Shown here: positions 1 through 20,246 of the stretch, one piece after another
Numbering within the stretch: position 1 is the first letter of the stretch
How the letters are laid out: every line of letters starts with the position of its first letter
NCBI RefSeq assembly: GCF_001746415.1
Contig: NZ_MEHJ01000001.1
Location: 5,152,501-5,216,500 of the forward strand
DNA length: 64,000 nt
From: Streptomyces agglomeratus
GTDB taxonomy: Bacteria; Actinomycetota; Actinomycetes; Streptomycetales; Streptomycetaceae
Reading direction: 5' to 3'
Translations under genes and position numbers: made by a program
The notes under the pieces: model-generated
Told to the model about the DNA's origin: nothing
Seen by the model: only the letters and a program-made list of their open reading frames with translations
The model's database searches: none

Positions 1-1428
1 AAGGATCAGGGCATTGCTTTCCCGCGGCCGATCGGCCGGGACGGGGACGGCTGGCGCGTCGTGGTCGACCTGCCGTACGGCAAGTCGTTCGCGGATGCTC
101 TGGCCAAACGCAAGGCGCTGGCGTCCGGCATCGACATCGCGGCCACCCAACTGTTCCTGGACCCTGATCTGTCCTCGGAGCGCAGGGTGTCGATGTGGAT
201 TGCCGACCGTGACCCGCTCGCGGTTCCCTCCGGTCGCACACCGCTGCTGGGCGCGACGCGGGTGGACTTCTGGCAGCCGTTCCCGTGGGGCGTGGACGAG
301 CGGGGCAACCCGGTCATGGCATCGATGCTGTGGCTGTCACTGCTGGTCGGAGCGGTTCCCCGGCAGGGCAAGACGTTCTCTGCCCGCACGATCGCCCTCG
401 CTGCGGCGCTGGACCCGCATGTGCGGCTCATTGTCTTCGACGGCAAGGCGTCGCCGGACTGGCGCGCGTTCGCCAAGGTCGCGCACCGCATCGGTTTCGG
501 CATCGTGCCCCGCAACGGCGTCGACCCGGTGGAGCAACTGGTCGCCGCGCTGATGGAGCTGAAGGCCGATGTGGAGGACCGCTACCACCGGCTGTCCGAA
601 CTGCCGCTGCACATCTGCCCCGAGGGCAAGCTCACCCCGGAGATCAGCCGGGACAAGAAGCTGAACATGCCGCTCACGCTGGTCGTCGTGGACGAGGTGC
701 AGGAGTACTTGCAGCACCCCGTGCACGGCAAGACCGTCCTTGAGCTGCTGGTCTACCTCGCCCGCGTGGCGCCGGCCGTCGGCGTCTCGGTCATGAACTC
801 GACGCAGAAGCCGGACGACACCGCCTGCCCGTCGGTCCTGCGCGACCAGCACCAGGCCCGCTTCTCCCTGCGGGTCGGTTCCTGGCAGGTCTCCGACGTG
901 GTGCTCGGTGCGGGCTCCTACAGCGAGGGCCTGGACGCATCCCGGTTGCTCAAGTCCCACAAGGGCGTGGGGCTGCTCAAGGGCATGTCAGATGAGGCGG
1001 GGATCGTCCGCACCTACCTTGCCGACGGCCGCGACGCCGACAGCGTCCTGACCCGCGCCCGCGCCCTGCGGGAGGACGAAGGGACCCTGTCCGGCGACGC
1101 CGCCGGAGAGGTCGCCGCCGTACACAACGGCGACGCGATCCTGACCGACGTGGCCGCGGTGTTGGGCCGCAAAGAAGACAAGGTCTGGTCCGAGACCGTC
1201 GTCGACCGCCTCGCGGACCTGAACCCGGACGCCTACGGCGAGTGGGCCGCGCTGGAGGGCCGCGCCAAGGCCGACCAGCTCGCTGCCGCGCTCAAGCCCT
1301 ACGGCATCAAGACCGACCAGGTGTGGGGCAAGACCGACAGCGGCAAGGGCGCCAACCGCCGCGGCATCGAGCGCCAGCACATCATCGACGCCGTCACGGA
1401 GCGCAACAAGAAGCGAGCCGCGAAGTAG
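1..1428 (+). CDS. FtsK/SpoIIIE-type DNA translocase, TraB/TraSA-like (5' partial)
   Basis: The frame is open from base 1, so the N-terminus lies outside the window; 475 codons are visible. A Walker A motif GAVPRQGKT is near base 350 and a Walker B LVVVDEV near base 680, followed by the STQKPD segment usual in actinobacterial FtsK-like transfer ATPases. The C-terminus (GIERQHIIDAV) looks like the end of a winged-helix DNA-binding domain. In the family, hexameric TraB proteins pump double-stranded plasmid or element DNA from mycelium to mycelium at the membrane after recognising short repeats called clt. It leads the element's transfer module, and a CTAG-rich repeat cluster follows its stop codon. 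Function by family; the assignment to transfer rather than chromosome segregation follows from the mobile-element neighbours. Confidence 0.85.
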   Translation, partial: KDQGIAFPRPIGRDGDGWRVVVDLPYGKSFADALAKRKALASGIDIAATQLFLDPDLSSERRVSMWIADRDPLAVPSGRTPLLGATRVDFWQPFPWGVDERGNPVMASMLWLSLLVGAVPRQGKTFSARTIALAAALDPHVRLIVFDGKASPDWRAFAKVAHRIGFGIVPRNGVDPVEQLVAALMELKADVEDRYHRLSELPLHICPEGKLTPEISRDKKLNMPLTLVVVDEVQEYLQHPVHGKTVLELLVYLARVAPAVGVSVMNSTQKPDDTACPSVLRDQHQARFSLRVGSWQVSDVVLGAGSYSEGLDASRLLKSHKGVGLLKGMSDEAGIVRTYLADGRDADSVLTRARALREDEGTLSGDAAGEVAAVHNGDAILTDVAAVLGRKEDKVWSETVVDRLADLNPDAYGEWAALEGRAKADQLAAALKPYGIKTDQVWGKTDSGKGANRRGIERQHIIDAVTERNKKRAAK

Positions 1429-1436
1429 CCCGCAGA

Positions 1437-1591
1437 GGTTGCTAGGTCTAGCAAGCCCCCTCGCTAGACCTAGCAACCTCGCTAGCGACCCAAACCCACC
1501 CTGATCAGGTCGCTAGCACCTAGCGGCCCACCTGCGGAAACCCCCGAAACTCACCCTGGAGGCCCTTCGTGACCCTTCCCGCGCTCGCTAG
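1437..1591. repeat. CTAG-rich repeat cluster with perfect 16-bp inverted repeat
   Basis: Arms GGTTGCTAGGTCTAGC (1437-1452) and GCTAGACCTAGCAACC (1463-1478) are perfectly complementary around a 10-base loop. The tetranucleotide CTAG, normally scarce in Streptomyces, occurs eight times (starts 1442, 1448, 1464, 1470, 1482, 1513, 1520, 1588). There is no T-run after the hairpin, so a simple terminator is not the obvious reading. Its position just after the translocase gene fits a clt-type transfer site or an operator; this is inference. Confidence 0.6.
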
Positions 1592-1850
1592 CGCCCTCCT
1601 GATCCTTCTCACTCTCTGTTACGCCTGCGTGTGCGCTGCCCAGCCATTCGGTCGCTGCCGCAAGTGCGACGGACTCGGCTTCCAGCTCACCCACGACCGC
1701 AAGGGACGGCCCAAGCGCGGCAAGCACTGCCGCCGCTGCAACGGCCACGGCATCCGCATACGGCGCGGCCGACACCTGTGGAACCAGTGGGCCCGCACCT
1801 ACCGCCAAGGCACCGCCCCCACCCCCAAACACCCCGCCCAGAAGGGATAG
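1569..1850 (+). CDS. Small membrane-anchored zinc-ribbon protein of the element
   Basis: The 93-residue product begins with a hydrophobic helix (about residues 4-24). Two DnaJ-like motifs follow, CRKCDGLG and CRRCNGHG, separated by about 18 residues, so four cysteines could bind one zinc. The C-terminus is basic and proline-rich. The start is GTG, with GGAGG about seven bases upstream. It lies between the translocase and two other small membrane proteins, the usual place for spread (Spd) proteins in Streptomyces elements. The biochemical role is unknown; an adaptor between the membrane and the transfer ATPase or DNA is possible but unproven. Confidence 0.6.
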   Translation: MTLPALASALLILLTLCYACVCAAQPFGRCRKCDGLGFQLTHDRKGRPKRGKHCRRCNGHGIRIRRGRHLWNQWARTYRQGTAPTPKHPAQKG

Positions 1851-3431: not shown

Positions 3432-4268
3432 ATGCCTCACCGCACCCCCGACGGACAGCTCAGGGCAGCGCTTGACGCTGCCGCCCGTGGCTGGCACGTC
3501 TTCCCCCTCACGCCGGGCAGTAAGCGCCCGGCCGTGCGGGCCTGGCAGGACCGCGCCACCATCGAAGCCGAGCGCATCACCCGATGCTGGCGGTCCGGCT
3601 CGTTCAATGTTGGCCTGGCCACCGGCCCTTCTGGCCTGGTTGTCGTCGACCTCGACACCCCCAAGGGGCCGAGTGACCTGCCGCCGGCGGACTGGGCTCT
3701 GCCCGGCATTGCCGACGGCACTGACGTGTTCGCCGCGTTCTGCGAACGCCACGAACAGCCTTATCCGGGAAACACGTTCACCGTGCGGACCCGCAGCGGT
3801 GGGACGCACCTGTACTTCGCCGCTCCTGCCGGATTCGAACTGCGGAACACCGGCGGCAAGATCGGTTGGAAGGTCGACACCCGCGCGGTCGGCGGATATG
3901 TCGTAGCCGCAGGCAGCACGGTCGACGGCCACCCGTACCAGACCGTCCACGACACTCTCCCGGCCGCCCTGCCCGGCTGGCTCGCCGACGTCCTCGCGCC
4001 CAAGCCCACACCAGCGCCGGTCCGGCTTCCCGCACAAGCGCCCGGCCGCCGCGCCGTCGGTCTCGTGAAAACCGTGCTGGACGCGCCTGAGGGCGAGCGA
4101 AACAACCGTCTGTACTGGGCCACCCTGCGCGCCTACGAGCGCGGCAGCGAGGCGGCCGCCGGAATTGCCGCCGCCCTCGTCGACGCGGCCGTCAGCGTGG
4201 GGCTGTCCGAGCGTGAAGCCCGCGCCACCGTGGCATCCGCAGAGCGCAAGATCCGGGGCGGGCGATGA
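3432..4268 (+). CDS. Bifunctional DNA primase/polymerase (Prim-Pol)
   Basis: The 278-residue product matches the Prim-Pol family found in plasmids and integrative elements, which makes primers and extends them with DNA polymerase activity. The N-terminal GWHVFPL entry motif is followed by the metal-binding DLD within GLVVVDLDTP (about residues 72-81), then GGTHLYF and the WKVDTRAVGGYVVAAGS block. The C-terminal quarter is helical. Start ATG 3432 follows AGGAGAG. Its stop overlaps the helicase start (ATGA at 4265-4268), so the two replication proteins are translationally coupled. This pair replaces the RepSA-type initiator of pSAM2. Confidence 0.88.
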   Translation: MPHRTPDGQLRAALDAAARGWHVFPLTPGSKRPAVRAWQDRATIEAERITRCWRSGSFNVGLATGPSGLVVVDLDTPKGPSDLPPADWALPGIADGTDVFAAFCERHEQPYPGNTFTVRTRSGGTHLYFAAPAGFELRNTGGKIGWKVDTRAVGGYVVAAGSTVDGHPYQTVHDTLPAALPGWLADVLAPKPTPAPVRLPAQAPGRRAVGLVKTVLDAPEGERNNRLYWATLRAYERGSEAAAGIAAALVDAAVSVGLSEREARATVASAERKIRGGR

Positions 4269-6118
4269 ACAGCGAGACCAAAGCCAAGGAACTCCTGTCC
4301 AAGAACGGCGTCGACTCTGAGGCATCCGAGCGGGGCAAGGGGCCCTCGCAGGCCTCCCAGCTTGTTGCCCTCGCCCGGGAACGGTTCGACGTCTTCATGT
4401 CCGACGACGGTCGCCCCTACGCCGTGACTCAGGGTGGCCCGAACATCGCCCTGCCATTGCGTGGAAAGGCCGGCCTCCGCTCCCAGCTCGCCCGCCTCTA
4501 CACGGAGGCAACCGGCGGCAATGTGCCCTCACAGTCCGCACTCGCGGACGCGATGACCGTCCTAGAAGGCATCGCGGCCGTCGCCGACCCCTGCACGCCG
4601 CAGCTGCGGACCGCCCGCCACGGGGAGCACATCGTCGTCGACCTCGCCAGCGCTGACGGTCGCTGCGTCCTCATCAGCCCGGACGGCTGGGAGAGGAGCC
4701 CCCGCTCCCCGGTTCTCTTCCGCCGCTCTGGGGCGATGAAGATCCTGCCTATGCCAGTCCGCGAGGGTGACGGCCTGGCCAAGCTCCGTGACCTGATGAA
4801 CACCAGCGAGGAAGGCTTTCACCTGCTTGTTGCATGGCTGGTGGCGTCGTTCATCCCGGACCTGCCGCACCCGATCCTCACCTTCCGAGGGGAACAGGGC
4901 ACCGGAAAGTCGAAGGGTGCGGCGATGGTCATCGGGATTGTCGACCCGTCCGGCGCGCCGAAGCGCACCGCGCCCCGGGATGTGAAGTCGTGGGCGACGC
5001 AGGCCTTCAACTCGTGGGCGCTGTGCATCGACAACGTCTCGTACATCCCGGACTGGTTCTCCGACGCACTGTGCCGCGCGGTCACGGGTGACGGCATTGT
5101 CGACCGCGCCCTCTACACCGACGACGACGTCGTCGTCCTCGAATTCCGGCGGGTGCTGGCCATGACCACTATCGACGCCGGGGCCCTCGCGGGCGACCTC
5201 GCCGAACGTCTCCTGACCATTGAGCTGCACACCATCCCCGACCGGAACCGGCGTGAGGAAGCCGAGCTGGATCGCGCCTATCGCGACGCTCACCCCAGCA
5301 TCCTGGCCTCGCTGTTCGACCTTCTGTCACGGGTCCTGCGGGCACTGCCCGACGTCCAGCTCACCGCCCGGCCGCGCATGGCCGACTTCGCCCGTGTACT
5401 CGCGGCCGTCGACCATGTCACGGGGTGGGACACCCAGGGCAGCTATCGGGCGACCGCCGCCGACGCGGTCGCCGACGTCCTCGAAGGCGAGCCTTTCGCC
5501 CGCGCCGTTGTCGACCTCGTACGGGCCGCCGGCCCTGCCGGGGTCTGCATGACAGCCGCCGACATCCTCGGCAAGGTCGTCATACCCGAGAAGCTGCCGA
5601 AGAAGTGGCCCAAGGACGCCACCCGCGCGGGTGGCCAACTCAAGCGCCTTGCCCCCGCCCTGCGGGCCATCGGCATTGACGTCGACGACACGCAGCGTGA
5701 GCCCACCGGCAACCGCTCGCGTCTCTACCGGCTGACCTCAGTGGAGACAAGCTGCATTCCAGCACCCGGAGCGCCCACAGCGCCCGGGGCTACCACTGAC
5801 CAGCACAAACGCCGGGGTGCTGCGGAAGCGCACAGCACCCGGACAGCGCCCACCAGCACCCGCGAGCGCCCGCCCTCGGGTGCTGCCGGTGCTGAACCGG
5901 GTGCTGTGAACGCGACAGCGCCCGCATCCCCCGCCCCGCTTGAACAGGGCGAGCTCGACCTGTCGGGTGCTGCGGGCGCTCCGGGCGCTGCGTTGCAGCA
6001 CATCTCTACATCCACCGTCCTTTGCGACGGCTGCCACACGCCCATCGACCCGGCACTCGTCACAGCGGGTGAAACAACTCACCCCTGCTGCGACCCGATT
6101 GAGAGGTCTGTCCAGTGA
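4265..6118 (+). CDS. Replication helicase / ATPase of the element
   Basis: The 617-residue product has a P-loop GEQGTGKSK near residue 215, a probable Walker B segment ALCIDNVSYIP and a downstream sensor region, as in the D5/phage-type primase-helicase ATPases paired with Prim-Pol genes. The N-terminal 200 residues are a non-catalytic domain. From about residue 498 the protein becomes low-complexity (Ala/Pro/Gly/Thr) and ends with a four-cysteine tail (CDGC ... CC). The DNA encoding the low-complexity part is a dense 9-bp repeat array, described separately. The gene overlaps Prim-Pol upstream and xis downstream, so replication and excision genes form one transcript. Confidence 0.8.
   Translation: MNSETKAKELLSKNGVDSEASERGKGPSQASQLVALARERFDVFMSDDGRPYAVTQGGPNIALPLRGKAGLRSQLARLYTEATGGNVPSQSALADAMTVLEGIAAVADPCTPQLRTARHGEHIVVDLASADGRCVLISPDGWERSPRSPVLFRRSGAMKILPMPVREGDGLAKLRDLMNTSEEGFHLLVAWLVASFIPDLPHPILTFRGEQGTGKSKGAAMVIGIVDPSGAPKRTAPRDVKSWATQAFNSWALCIDNVSYIPDWFSDALCRAVTGDGIVDRALYTDDDVVVLEFRRVLAMTTIDAGALAGDLAERLLTIELHTIPDRNRREEAELDRAYRDAHPSILASLFDLLSRVLRALPDVQLTARPRMADFARVLAAVDHVTGWDTQGSYRATAADAVADVLEGEPFARAVVDLVRAAGPAGVCMTAADILGKVVIPEKLPKKWPKDATRAGGQLKRLAPALRAIGIDVDDTQREPTGNRSRLYRLTSVETSCIPAPGAPTAPGATTDQHKRRGAAEAHSTRTAPTSTRERPPSGAAGAEPGAVNATAPASPAPLEQGELDLSGAAGAPGAALQHISTSTVLCDGCHTPIDPALVTAGETTHPCCDPIERSVQ
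5761..5989. repeat. Iteron-like array of AGCRCCC repeats inside the helicase gene
   Basis: The heptamer AGCRCCC occurs on the plus strand at 5761, 5770, 5779, 5834, 5845, 5855, 5865 and 5917. Its complement GGGYGCT occurs at 5815, 5878, 5899, 5965, 5974 and 5983, giving fourteen exact copies in 229 bp. The first three and last three copies are spaced exactly 9 bp apart and point in opposite directions, framing the array. The DNA also encodes the Ala/Pro/Gly-rich tail of the helicase. An iteron-type replication origin is my inference; codon-level low complexity is the alternative. Confidence 0.6.
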
Positions 6119-6315
6119 CGACTTCCACCATCGGGACACGGGCGATGCTCACGCTGACCGAGCTCTGCCAAGAGCTCCAGATCTCCCGATCGACCTTCTA
6201 CGACTGGCGTCAGAAGGGGCGCGCACCACGCTGCATCAAGCTCCCGAACGGTGACCTCCGCATCCGCCGTGGCGACTTGAACAACTGGCTTGATGACCGG
6301 GAGGACAGGGACTGA
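6115..6315 (+). CDS. xis: Excisionase / MerR-like helix-turn-helix protein
   Basis: The 66-residue protein contains a winged-helix segment LTLTELCQELQISRSTFYDW followed by a short wing (KLPNGDLRIRRGDLNNWL), the layout of actinobacterial Xis proteins that bend att DNA and direct the integrase towards excision. GTG start overlaps the helicase stop (GTGA), and its TGA overlaps the integrase ATG (TGATG), so the three genes are translationally coupled. Identification rests on size, fold pattern and the invariable position just upstream of int. Confidence 0.85.
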   Translation: MTTSTIGTRAMLTLTELCQELQISRSTFYDWRQKGRAPRCIKLPNGDLRIRRGDLNNWLDDREDRD

Positions 6316-7703
6316 TGGACAGCACGTACAACGTCAAGGTCTGGAAGACCGCGACGTACAAGGGCGCCAGAGGAACCACGTACACGGTCCGGTGGACGCT
6401 CGACGGGCAGGAGAAGCGGGCGCCCTTTGCCACCCGGGCGCTAGCGGACGCCTTCCGCTCGGAGCTGGTCAGCGCCACCCGCCGGGGTGAGGCCTTCAGC
6501 CTCGCCACGGGGCGGCCGGTCTCACACACGTCCGGGGCTAGCGCGACGAACTGGTACGAATTCGCGATTCAGTTCGTCGACGCCAAGTGGTTACACACGT
6601 CTGGGAACAACCGAAAGAACGTAGCCAAGGCGTTCATGACGGCGACCATCGCGCTGCTGCGTACGGAGCCGACTGGGTTCAAGCCCATCGACGTACGCAC
6701 GGCTCTGCGTGAATGGGCCTTCAACACGAAGCGACGCAACGACGCACCCCCGGACGTGGCTGCGATTCTTCGATGGGTTGAGCGCAACACTCTGACGATG
6801 GCTGCGTGGGAGGATCCGGAGAAGGTCGAAGAGGTCCTGAACGCCCTGGCCACCAAGCTGGATGGCAAGCCCGCAGCAGCGTCGTGCATCAAGCGCCACC
6901 GCCGGATCATGAACGTCGCGATGGAGTACGCGGTGAAGCACAAGGTCCTGAGGTCGAATCCCTTGCCAAAGGGGAGAGGGACGGCCCCGAAGACCTCTTC
7001 TGCGGTGGACAAGCGCAGCCTGATCAACCCCACGCAAGCCGCGGCCTTGCTCGGGTGGGTGCGCCGCCGCACCCGCGGCGGGCGGCGCCTGCACGCATTC
7101 CTCGCCACGATTTATTACGCCGGCCCGCGCCCGGAGGAGGCTGTGGCGATGTACGTACGCGACGCGGTGCTGCCGGACGAAGAGGACGAAGACCAGTGGA
7201 GTGAGCTGTTGTTCCATACGGCCCAACCGGAGGTGGGAAAGCAGTGGACCGACACAGGGGAGGTTCATGAGGAGCGTGGACTCAAAGGGCGGGCCGCAGG
7301 TGACACCCGCAATGTGCCCTGCCGTCCTGCCTTGACTCGGATCCTGCGTGAGCACATCAAGACCGAGAAGCTGAAGCCCGGCGACCTTCTGTTCCCGGGG
7401 GAGAAGGGCGGCCTGCTGGCGGGCTCAGTCTTCCGCCGGGCGTGGGGCACGGCTCGTAAGAAGGTCCTCACTGCCGACGAGTGCGCATCGCCGCTCGGTA
7501 GGCGGGTCTACGACCTGCGGCACACCTGCCTGACCACGTGGCTCAACAACGGGGTCCCGCCGGCGCAGGTCGCAGAGTGGGCGGGCAACAGCGTGCCTGT
7601 GCTGCTCGCCACGTACGCCCGCTGCATCTCTGGGCAGCTCAAGGATCACCAGAAGCGTATCGAGGCCACGCCGGACCTTGAGGAGCGGCACGGGGAAGGC
7701 TGA
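6315..7703 (+). CDS. int: Site-specific tyrosine recombinase (integrase)
   Basis: The 462-residue product has an SAM-like N-terminal arm-binding region and a C-terminal catalytic domain. The first catalytic Arg lies in GPRPEEAVAM, the second Arg with its His neighbour in YDLRHTCLTTWLNNG, and the nucleophile Tyr in LLATYARC near the end. Such integrases insert actinobacterial elements into tRNA 3' ends, and here the gene lies about 180 bp from a tRNA-Arg. Codon 93 (6591-6593) is TTA, the leucine codon read only by the developmentally controlled bldA tRNA in Streptomyces, so production may depend on developmental stage. Start ATG overlaps the xis stop by one base. Confidence 0.93.
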   Translation: MDSTYNVKVWKTATYKGARGTTYTVRWTLDGQEKRAPFATRALADAFRSELVSATRRGEAFSLATGRPVSHTSGASATNWYEFAIQFVDAKWLHTSGNNRKNVAKAFMTATIALLRTEPTGFKPIDVRTALREWAFNTKRRNDAPPDVAAILRWVERNTLTMAAWEDPEKVEEVLNALATKLDGKPAAASCIKRHRRIMNVAMEYAVKHKVLRSNPLPKGRGTAPKTSSAVDKRSLINPTQAAALLGWVRRRTRGGRRLHAFLATIYYAGPRPEEAVAMYVRDAVLPDEEDEDQWSELLFHTAQPEVGKQWTDTGEVHEERGLKGRAAGDTRNVPCRPALTRILREHIKTEKLKPGDLLFPGEKGGLLAGSVFRRAWGTARKKVLTADECASPLGRRVYDLRHTCLTTWLNNGVPPAQVAEWAGNSVPVLLATYARCISGQLKDHQKRIEATPDLEERHGEG

Positions 7704-7881: not shown

Positions 7882-7957
7882 TGGTGCCCCCGGCAGGACT
7901 CGAACCTGCGGCCAAGCGCTTAGAAGGCGCCTGCTCTATCCACTGAGCTACGGGGGC
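7882..7957 (-). tRNA. tRNA-Arg (anticodon TCT), probable element attachment site
   Basis: Read on the minus strand, the sequence folds as a standard tRNA. The acceptor stem GCCCCCG/CGGGGGC, D stem GCTC/GAGC, anticodon loop CTTCTAA with anticodon TCT, and T stem GCAGG/CCTGC with loop TTCGAGT are all present. The discriminator A and an encoded CCA end at 7882. Its 3' end faces the integrase gene, as expected when an element has integrated into the tRNA 3' end and restored it. The att core should therefore lie in the 3' half (about 7882-7930); the partner repeat lies left of the window. Confidence 0.93.
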
Positions 7958-19034: not shown

Positions 19035-20246
19035 TCAGCCCCGGCGGACCGTGATCGTCGTCCAGGCGCCCACGTGGACGCGGTCGCCGTCCTGGAGCGG
19101 TACCGGGACGTAGGGCTGGATCGGGTCCTCCGCGCCGTTCACGGTCGTGCCGTTCGTCGAGTTCTGGTCGACGACGGCCCACGAGCCGTCGGGCTGCTGG
19201 ACCAGGACCGCGTGCTGGTGCGACACGCCCGGGTCCTCCGGCGGTACGGACAGGTCGATGTCCGGTGCCTCGCCCGTGCTGTGGCGGCGGCGGCCGATGG
19301 TGACCTGGTTGCCGGTGAGCGGGCGCTGCTGCTCGGGCGAGTACGCGGGCAGGTTGAGGCCAGCGGCGTCGGGGCCGCTGCGCTGCATCATCGCCATGAA
19401 GTACTCGCGGTCGGGACCCACGGTCGCGGTCCATCCGGCAGCCGGAGCGGGGGCCTGGTAGTGCTGCTGCGGGGGCTGCTGCTGTTGGGGCTGCCCCTGC
19501 GGCGGCTGTGACTGCTGATGGGGCGGCTGCTGCTGGTGCTGCTGCGGTGGCTGCTGCTGCGACGGCGGGGGGAGCATCCAGTCGTCGTCACCGCCGCGGT
19601 CCCGCCGCGGGGGCGCCGGCGGTGCGGGCGGTGCCTGCTGCTGGAACGACGGCGGCGGACCCGGCTGCTGCTGGAACGGCGGCTGCTGCTGGAAGGCTTG
19701 CGGCGGCGCCTGCCCGCCGGACTGCTCCGGCGCCAGCGGCTCGGCCGGCCGGTTCATCTGCGACGGGCGCGAGGGCTGGTACTCGTACGGATCCCGGGCC
19801 TGCCCCGCCTGCCCGGGAGGGGCAGGCGGTCCTTGCTGCTGCGCCTGGAAGCCGGGCGGCAGGTTGAGGCCGGCGCCGGGGCCGGGGCCACCGGGACCGG
19901 GGCGGGAGTTCTGCGGGGCGACCGGCGTGTAGGAGGTCGCCGTGTTCGTCAGGTAGTTCCAGCGGCACTCCTCGCAGAACGGGGCCATGGCCTCGCGCGG
20001 GGTGCGGCACTGCGGGCAGATCTCCGCCTGGGCGGTGGCGTCCGGGCCGGGCGGCGGGAAACCGTAGCCCGAGCCGGGGGCGGCTCCCGGGCCCTGGGGG
20101 GCACCCGGGCCGGGGCCCTGCGGGTAGCCGTAGCCGGGGGCGGGCGGCGGCGGGGGAGGCGGCGGCACGGCGCCGGCCATGCGATGGCCGCAGACCTCGC
20201 ACCAGTCGTCGGATCCCGACTGGTGTCCGTTCGGGCAGGTCGGCAT
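19035..20246 (-). CDS. FHA-domain protein with zinc ribbon and Pro/Gln-rich linker
   Basis: The 403-residue product has an N-terminal zinc ribbon (CPNGHQ ... CEVCG), a second CPQC ... CEEC ribbon near residue 75, and a long Pro/Gln/Gly-rich linker encoded partly by CTG/CAG runs. The C-terminal FHA domain (about 310-400) shows VTIGRRRHSTGEAPDI, VSHQHAVLV and NSTNGTTVNG. FHA domains bind phosphothreonine peptides. It is the last gene of the kinase cassette and a likely phospho-target or scaffold, comparable in position logic to GarA of mycobacteria but with a very different N-terminus. GGGGAAG precedes the ATG. Confidence 0.85.
   Translation of the reverse strand: MPTCPNGHQSGSDDWCEVCGHRMAGAVPPPPPPPPAPGYGYPQGPGPGAPQGPGAAPGSGYGFPPPGPDATAQAEICPQCRTPREAMAPFCEECRWNYLTNTATSYTPVAPQNSRPGPGGPGPGAGLNLPPGFQAQQQGPPAPPGQAGQARDPYEYQPSRPSQMNRPAEPLAPEQSGGQAPPQAFQQQPPFQQQPGPPPSFQQQAPPAPPAPPRRDRGGDDDWMLPPPSQQQPPQQHQQQPPHQQSQPPQGQPQQQQPPQQHYQAPAPAAGWTATVGPDREYFMAMMQRSGPDAAGLNLPAYSPEQQRPLTGNQVTIGRRRHSTGEAPDIDLSVPPEDPGVSHQHAVLVQQPDGSWAVVDQNSTNGTTVNGAEDPIQPYVPVPLQDGDRVHVGAWTTITVRRG

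Follow-up and report, generated by a model that had tools for sequence, protein, structure and literature searches.

Why does one heptamer, AGCRCCC, recur on both strands within a short part of the coding sequence of a replication helicase? The question is raised by a 64,000-nt stretch of Streptomyces agglomeratus DNA (the window; G000:C1:5152501-5216500), whose first 7.9 kb, ending at a tRNA-Arg gene, form the right half of an integrative element of approximately 16.4 kb. The original prediction reported fourteen exact copies of the heptamer within 229 bp at the 3' end of the helicase gene, and our word search found exactly fourteen (eight on the plus and six on the minus strand; Table 1). 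Our best explanation, which we hold with considerable confidence, is that the array is a binding platform, and very probably a replication origin, that the element's own D5/SaPI-Rep-like helicase is its initiator and reader, and that the protein tail encoded by the array is largely a by-product. The array itself, its conservation as DNA despite changes of word and beyond the stop codon, and an association between the word and the wing of the helicase are observed directly.

Site arrangement in the window and in relatives

The plus-strand sites start at 5761, 5770, 5779, 5834, 5845, 5855, 5865 and 5917, and the minus-strand sites at 5815, 5878, 5899, 5965, 5974 and 5983. As predicted, the outer triplets (5761/5770/5779 and 5965/5974/5983) are opposite in orientation with exact 9-bp spacing, and the two array ends with their flanks form a 46-nt imperfect inverted repeat (78% complementary). 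The plus-strand sites occupy all three reading frames of the helicase (5, 2 and 1 sites), the minus-strand sites all lie in one frame, and one codon phase is common to 11 of the 14 sites (five plus, six minus). The repeat unit extends beyond the seven bases to roughly C-AGCRCCC-G, with G as the next base in 11 of the 14 sites.

The array had been estimated by hand to exceed chance, and coding-aware nulls for the helicase tail (5740 to stop; 20,000 draws each) bore this out. When the amino acids were fixed and codons were drawn from the element's usage, the mean was 0.84 sites and the maximum 5; permuting synonymous codons within the tail gave a mean of 1.9 and a maximum of 8, and permuting codon order a mean of 0.44 and a maximum of 5. 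The next densest 229-bp stretch of the window held three copies. Over the 64 kb, AGCRCCC occurred 69 times against a shuffled mean of 43, indicating that the word is somewhat frequent here but forms no comparable cluster elsewhere.

Relatives of the helicase were taken from chosen genomes plus even samples of 392 (genus), 391 (order) and 394 (class) genomes; they are a sample, in which only the best matches were made into loci (numbered with L) and 20 distant hits were fetched. L007 was left out because its figures were the same as those of L011, and L038, the same partial gene as L008, was left out of the column, permutation and repetition tests. In each of 22 long-tailed loci (the window included), none of 2000 synonymous permutations reached the observed number of sites. 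All 48 loci at or above 57% identity were more repetitive in the 300 bp 3' of the helicase core than in any 260-bp stretch of the core itself (mean maximum 7.9 vs 3.4). A cluster of short repeats well above chance adjoins or lies within its proposed initiator gene and is conserved with it.

In the 22 long-tailed loci, the array had a common position in the gene, directly following the winged helix, and its word was AGCRCCC, AGCGTCC, AGCGTCA or CGCTGTCC, with spacing and orientation largely kept. Within the group that is 73-93% identical, L004, L005, L010, L011, L039, L054 and the window carried 12-15 copies of AGCRCCC and the others 7-12 copies of AGCGTCC (four in the decayed L014); L006 had 10 sites of AGCGTCA, and L043 (62% identical) nine of the CGCTGTCC type. 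L055, L057-L059 and L062 (49-53% identical), which were not among the 22 loci of the permutation test, were also long-tailed and held 3-7 copies of AGCCTCC or AGTGTCC. The related helicases did not keep the amino-acid repeat with unrelated codons; instead, the amino acids of the tail changed along with the word. L041 kept seven sites despite a different, longer tail; its post-array tail (L041:1504-3504) is read differently from that of its relatives, which suggests a frame change within the array, seemingly tolerated.

With 5761 set to 0 and orientation marked by > and <, the geometry of the window is >0 >9 >18 <54 >73 >84 >94 >104 <117 <138 >156 <204 <213 <222, and that of L043, with another word, is >0 <55 >73 >84 >95 <118 <139 >156 <223. 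The right half is common to most long-tailed AGCGTCC loci, shifted by 15. Thirteen arrays were compared with the window at 1 bp tolerance, using 400 random placements each. L043 matched at 9/9 sites (random maximum 6), L002 at 6/9 (4), L081 at 7/11, L080 at 7/9, L006 at 7/10, L020 and L078 at 7/12 (6 each), and L005, which has the window's own word, at 8/15 (7); the matches of L016, L061 and L085 were reached by 1, 3 and 8 of the 400 placements, respectively. Conserved DNA words had been expected even where tails differ: the geometry is indeed largely kept, whereas the word itself is not common to all relatives.

A second motif, TGACC[AT]GC, sits in the site-free gaps of the array. Of the 48 loci, 25 held at least two copies of TGAVCWG, whose background frequency in the core was 0.04 per 300 bp. 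One copy is noncoding in 14 of 26 sister loci (+104 to +123), its TGA is the helicase stop codon in L060 and L061, and CTGACCTGC, a form of the same motif, lies inside the array of plasmid pFP11.

The array is not confined to the coding sequence in all relatives. Sister-group helicases (58-63% identical) have an open reading frame that ends early, and their AGCGTCC sites often span approximately -81 to +171 of the stop; in L024, L048 and L050, every exact site found lies after it. Among the distant loci (34-40% identical), 16 of 21 had a cluster of at least six copies of a word such as TGCGTCA or CGTCCCC after the stop. The plasmids pFP11, NBC_01238 unnamed4 and pSTS2 carry GCGTCCC arrays approximately 0.5 kb downstream of a homologous helicase, in DNA without an annotated gene. 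Thus, the relatives appear to form a graded series with the array outside, across and inside the gene, and the tail is as predicted a probable by-product, since sister and distant elements have arrays that cross the stop or are located 3' of it. In a tree built from 71 helicases, on which inside and straddling were labelled by a tail of over or under 200 nt and not by the position of each site, the three locations required three changes (minimum possible two). L056, without a detectable word, was left out of this tree, as were L024 and L043 from an alignment of 25 sister sequences. The ancestral location hinges on the choice of root, and a location outside the gene seems likelier. The array is one member of a family of cis-elements linked to a single family of initiator-like helicases.

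Other features were noted in these loci. A GC-rich, terminator-like hairpin (CCGGGCCGGGCCGC ... AGCGGCCCGG) is kept in the alignment of 25 between the sister helicase stop and the right half of the array. Many of the loci L021-L037 and L044-L052 have a further cluster (CAGGGAG, GCCTCCC, TACTGCC or CTTGTCG) approximately 400-1200 bp past the helicase stop, perhaps a clt. The window's own genome contains a second helicase of the family (L002, G000:C1:4146661-4151043; 35% identical), followed by 11 GCGTCAC sites after its stop. Genome G246 has two elements (L015, L053) with different words and wings, and G684 has two (L058, L062) with the same word.

The winged helix and the word

The helicase was assigned a D5/SaPI-Rep-like fold from likeness of fold and layout. 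Its Walker A motif, GEQGTGKS, occupies residues 209-216, of which 209-213, 215 and 216 were invariant in 31 sequences. It had no match to a helicase family of Pfam, PHROG or NCBIfam, and a sequence search of the PDB found no relatives. In the AlphaFold2 model, the C-terminal winged helix comprises helices at 410-422, 431-437 and 452-468 and strands at 471-478 and 486-492. After the array, the protein ends in a Cys-rich stretch (CxxC ... HPCC; window approximately 6020-6115), which is found in many, but not all, long-tailed relatives and is a possible zinc site.

We compared seven AGCRCCC loci with 13 AGCGTCC loci, leaving out L006 with its third word type. Only five of 492 helicase residues (421, 479, 482, 483 and 485) separated the two classes fully, and, given the strands at 471-478 and 486-492 in the model, four of these five form the wing tip. 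The base after the heptamer also differed with the wing: it was C with PKPKKQ-type wings (PSPKKQ in L040, PKPLRQ in L014) at 83/85 sites of 10 loci, A with PAPKRQ wings (11/12 sites in L020 and 8/11 in L038), and G with PDAKRK wings (10/12 sites each in L016 and L053). Among pairs of 21 loci, the strongest same-word effect remaining after core identity fell on the 13-residue window 474-486 (coefficient 0.38; median over windows -0.001). At a core identity of at least 0.90, wing identity was 0.98 for pairs with the same word (8 pairs) and 0.59 for pairs with different words (10 pairs). In addition, L006 (AGCGTCAC) and nine distant loci of the GCGTCA type share a shortened wing ending in RY (GRY in L006 and four of the nine, ARY in the other five), which would be harder to explain by linkage.

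The same comparison was made for the neighbouring proteins. Prim-Pol (bifunctional primase/polymerase) was rejected as the reader: it had no discriminating column and was 38-39% identical in the same-word loci L005, L010 and L011 and 68% in L004; no tblastn match was found in L039 and L054 within a 1.5-kb flank, which may have been too short. Xis was also rejected, with one discriminating column (60 of 66) in a comparison of 6 and 2 sequences; at an unchanged word, its identity was 45-63% in L004, L005, L010 and L011 and 85% in L039, with no match in L054. Divergence of TraB, Int and Xis was not accompanied by a change of word. As judged from these alignments, the word tracks the wing tip, and Prim-Pol, Xis, integrase and TraB do not track the word, suggesting that changes in the word go with changes in the part of the protein that would read it.

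Some loci switch affinity at this point of the gene. L013 and L041 (AGCGTCC) nested with L010 and L011 (AGCRCCC) with support of 100/99 and 96/90, and did so again in the 71-helicase tree; their DNA was closest to that of L010 and L011 throughout most of residues 21-470; at residues 471-492, however, identity to these was only 0.61-0.67, compared with an average of 0.78-0.81 to the AGCGTCC group. Similarly, in the core and after the array L016 resembled L018 and L019 (0.89-0.92 and 0.83-0.84, respectively), whereas it was closer to L053 in the wing (0.88 vs 0.71-0.73) and in the array (0.87 vs 0.72-0.75). Because of these switches, the wing and array seem to move together and appear to have been exchanged as one cassette. 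We give an even chance to the further proposal that the 3'-terminal part of the helicase gene forms a specificity cassette complete in itself, in which one recombination would swap reader and site and create a new replication-compatibility type in one step. With the origin within the gene of its reader, right after the wing, lock and key would be inseparable.

Possible origin activity and competing explanations

Related arrangements have been described. The initiator helicases SaPI Rep and SCCmec Cch2 have their iterons or origin downstream of the gene, according to the available text of PMC7581432; here, the putative origin is inside the coding sequence, words and hosts differ, and identity in the structural alignment is 8%. 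The Streptomyces theta plasmids pFP11 and pWTY27 (RepA-iteron type) likewise combine a Prim-Pol with a second replication protein, and pWTY27 RepA, likened to the helicase here by description only, binds an array of 7-8-bp words on both strands; the arrays lie outside the gene, and the accessible part of that paper describes no wing-word cassette (PMC3583192). pFP11 encodes a homologous helicase (40%) and has a GCGTCCC array holding the CTGACCTGC motif. As in the window, the iterons of lambdoid phages lie within the coding sequence of their own initiator, O, and added iterons add amino acids (PMC7466680, PMC6022878), but they are mid-gene and fewer (4 to 6). The RepPP modules of actinomycete integrative and conjugative elements (AICEs), such as SCO4617-SCO4618 of SLP1, resemble the element in having a Prim-Pol followed by a second putative replication gene, an FtsK-like Tra and Int; SCO4618 is likened by description, and the AICE survey does not contain the word iteron and, in its available part, names no origin for these modules (PMC3218068). 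Origins inside initiator genes (lambdoid phages) and iterons beside D5-like initiators (SaPIs) are already known. In the mostly openly accessible papers covered by our literature search, we found no description of this array, nor did we see described its combination of features, i.e., an array in the helicase's own 3' end beside a reading wing, interchangeable words and a largely kept frame. Lambda O is not known to be a D5-type helicase. Origins inside rep genes have also been reported for Streptomyces linear plasmids, although the literature search brought up no such case.

On the origin reading, the C-terminal winged helix would bind the heptamers, and the wing tip would decide which word is read. 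Copies of the helicase would assemble on the inward-facing groups of sites, open the DNA close by and load the ring of the D5-like helicase; synthesis would be primed by the Prim-Pol encoded next to it. The array, which is 3' of the gene in distant relatives, would be read through as codons in the window's clade, making the Ala/Pro/Gly linker largely a by-product. The iteron reading of the original prediction is supported by the DNA arrays of similar geometry in relatives, and we infer origin activity from homologous systems.

Several points weigh against this reading. None of the 15 lowest-GC 40-mers between 3200 and 6600 lies within 300 bp of the array; next to the noncoding arrays of plasmids and distant relatives there are stretches of lower GC, as gauged by GC content only. 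Because the wing and the array adjoin, their association could in part reflect nothing more than linkage and by itself is no proof of reading. The pairs in the regression are not independent and are uncorrected for shared ancestry; the different-word pair L041/L020 had a wing identity of 0.85, and same-word pairs went down to 0.62. No cluster of five sites was found in L014, L055, L056 and L058, and none of at least six in the fetched flank of five of the 21 distant loci (L066, L075, L076, L077, L084). The geometry of L027 (5/9) was reached by 12 of 400 random placements and that of L083 (3/9) by 361. The plasmid arrays look different in geometry from the window's, all three plasmids have a small YozE-family gene between the helicase and the array, and the pFP11 helicase found here is presumed to be pFP11 RepA. 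Finally, helicase binding, DNA melting, loading and priming, like origin activity, are steps that we infer.

Other explanations were weighed against the same evidence. A selected Ala/Pro/Gly protein repeat, with the DNA repeats as its by-product, would account for a low-complexity tail and for the 11 sites in one codon phase, but it is ruled out by the synonymous nulls and by arrays that continue past the stop codon in sister elements, and the geometry that stays while the amino acids change with the word, together with the sites kept by L041, contradicts it as well; we give it next to no chance. Iterons can also regulate, and an operator of the helicase, Xis or another regulator, acting in autoregulation or copy control and not as an origin, would suit an array that lies immediately before xis-int with no adjacent AT-rich tract. 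We consider this unlikely, since the 3' end of the final replication gene would be an odd location for a promoter-operator of 14 sites, Xis varies while the word stays, and the array follows the gene in distant relatives, as the SaPI origin does (PMC7581432).

Docking of the TraB/FtsK translocase for conjugation at a clt is a further alternative: Streptomyces clt loci can be clusters of short repeats, and that of pWTY27 holds 7-bp words bound by TraA (PMC3583192). It is very unlikely here, as the word is kept in L004, whose TraB is only 30% identical (one locus; the flanks of L005 and L007 yielded no TraB), a separate, palindromic CTAG cluster directly follows traB in the window (1442-1591), and in plasmids such as pFP11 arrays of a related word are located 3' of the helicase gene. 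Partition and incompatibility sites are also iterated, and in the plasmid relatives L063 and L064 a ParA gene lies approximately 2 kb downstream of the helicase; yet the word tracks the helicase wing, and seven scanned proteins of the element gave no partition-family Pfam match (its left 8.4 kb, with open reading frames partly listed, was outside the scan). A site for a segregation protein is accordingly just as improbable as a clt.

Host element and significance

The element is bounded by a 42-bp perfect direct repeat, one copy of which lies in the window and the other at G000:C1:5144046-5144087. Small genes lie between TraB and Prim-Pol in its right half. With an integrase, a tRNA attachment site, a direct repeat at both ends, an FtsK/SpoIIIE-like Tra and a Prim-Pol module, the element is classed as an AICE from its gene content, with putative functions in excision, replication and transfer. 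A palindromic GCTAG/CTAGC cluster directly 3' of traB (window 1441-1597) is a candidate clt or operator; 8 of the 22 CTAG copies in the window fall at 1442-1591. Elsewhere in the window, dense CAGCAG repeats occur at 19341-19581 (up to 14 per 229 bp, overlapping, on both strands).

Table 1. Positions of the array, its gene and neighbouring features in the window
Feature	Position	Strand	Basis or remark
TraB, FtsK/SpoIIIE-like	61-1428		phrog_1358, E 4e-28; no Pfam match
Prim-Pol, helicase partner gene	3432..4268	+	PF09250, E 1.1e-46
Replication helicase/initiator, 617 aa	4265..6118	+	Fold like D5/SaPI-Rep; linker predicted disordered between C-terminal winged helix and Cys-rich end
C-terminal winged-helix domain, residues 410-492, proposed array reader	5492..5740	+	AlphaFold2 model; association with word
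Wing tip, residues 479-485	5699..5719	+	4 of 5 columns fully separating the two main word classes
Left arm of inverted repeat (array left end and flank)	5741..5786	+
Array-encoded linker, residues 494-583	5744..6013	+	Predicted disordered; predicted local distance difference test score about 27 (AlphaFold2 model)
Iteron array, 14 AGCRCCC sites	5761..5989	.	Word search of window DNA
Second motif, left copy, TGACCAGCACAAA	5797..5809	+	In left site-free gap
Second motif, right copy, TGAACAGGGCGA	5941..5952	+	Degenerate; in right site-free gap
Right arm of inverted repeat (array right end and flank)	5964..6009	-
Xis, HTH_17 excisionase-like	6115..6315	+	PF12728, E 2.2e-11; TIGR01764 below cut-off
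Tyrosine integrase	6315..7703	+	PF00589, E 8e-5, under curated cut-off; position beside tRNA
attR core, 42-bp direct repeat	7886..7927	.	Within tRNA-Arg (7882-7957)

Our analysis proposes an origin for a Prim-Pol class of actinobacterial integrative elements, for which none is named in the available part of the AICE survey (PMC3218068). As in the natural case of lambdoid O, the coding sequence of an initiator would contain its origin, and the analysis offers a testable reader-site code that sets wing tip residues against the heptamer. If the cassette reading is true, mobile elements would have a simple route to change their compatibility.
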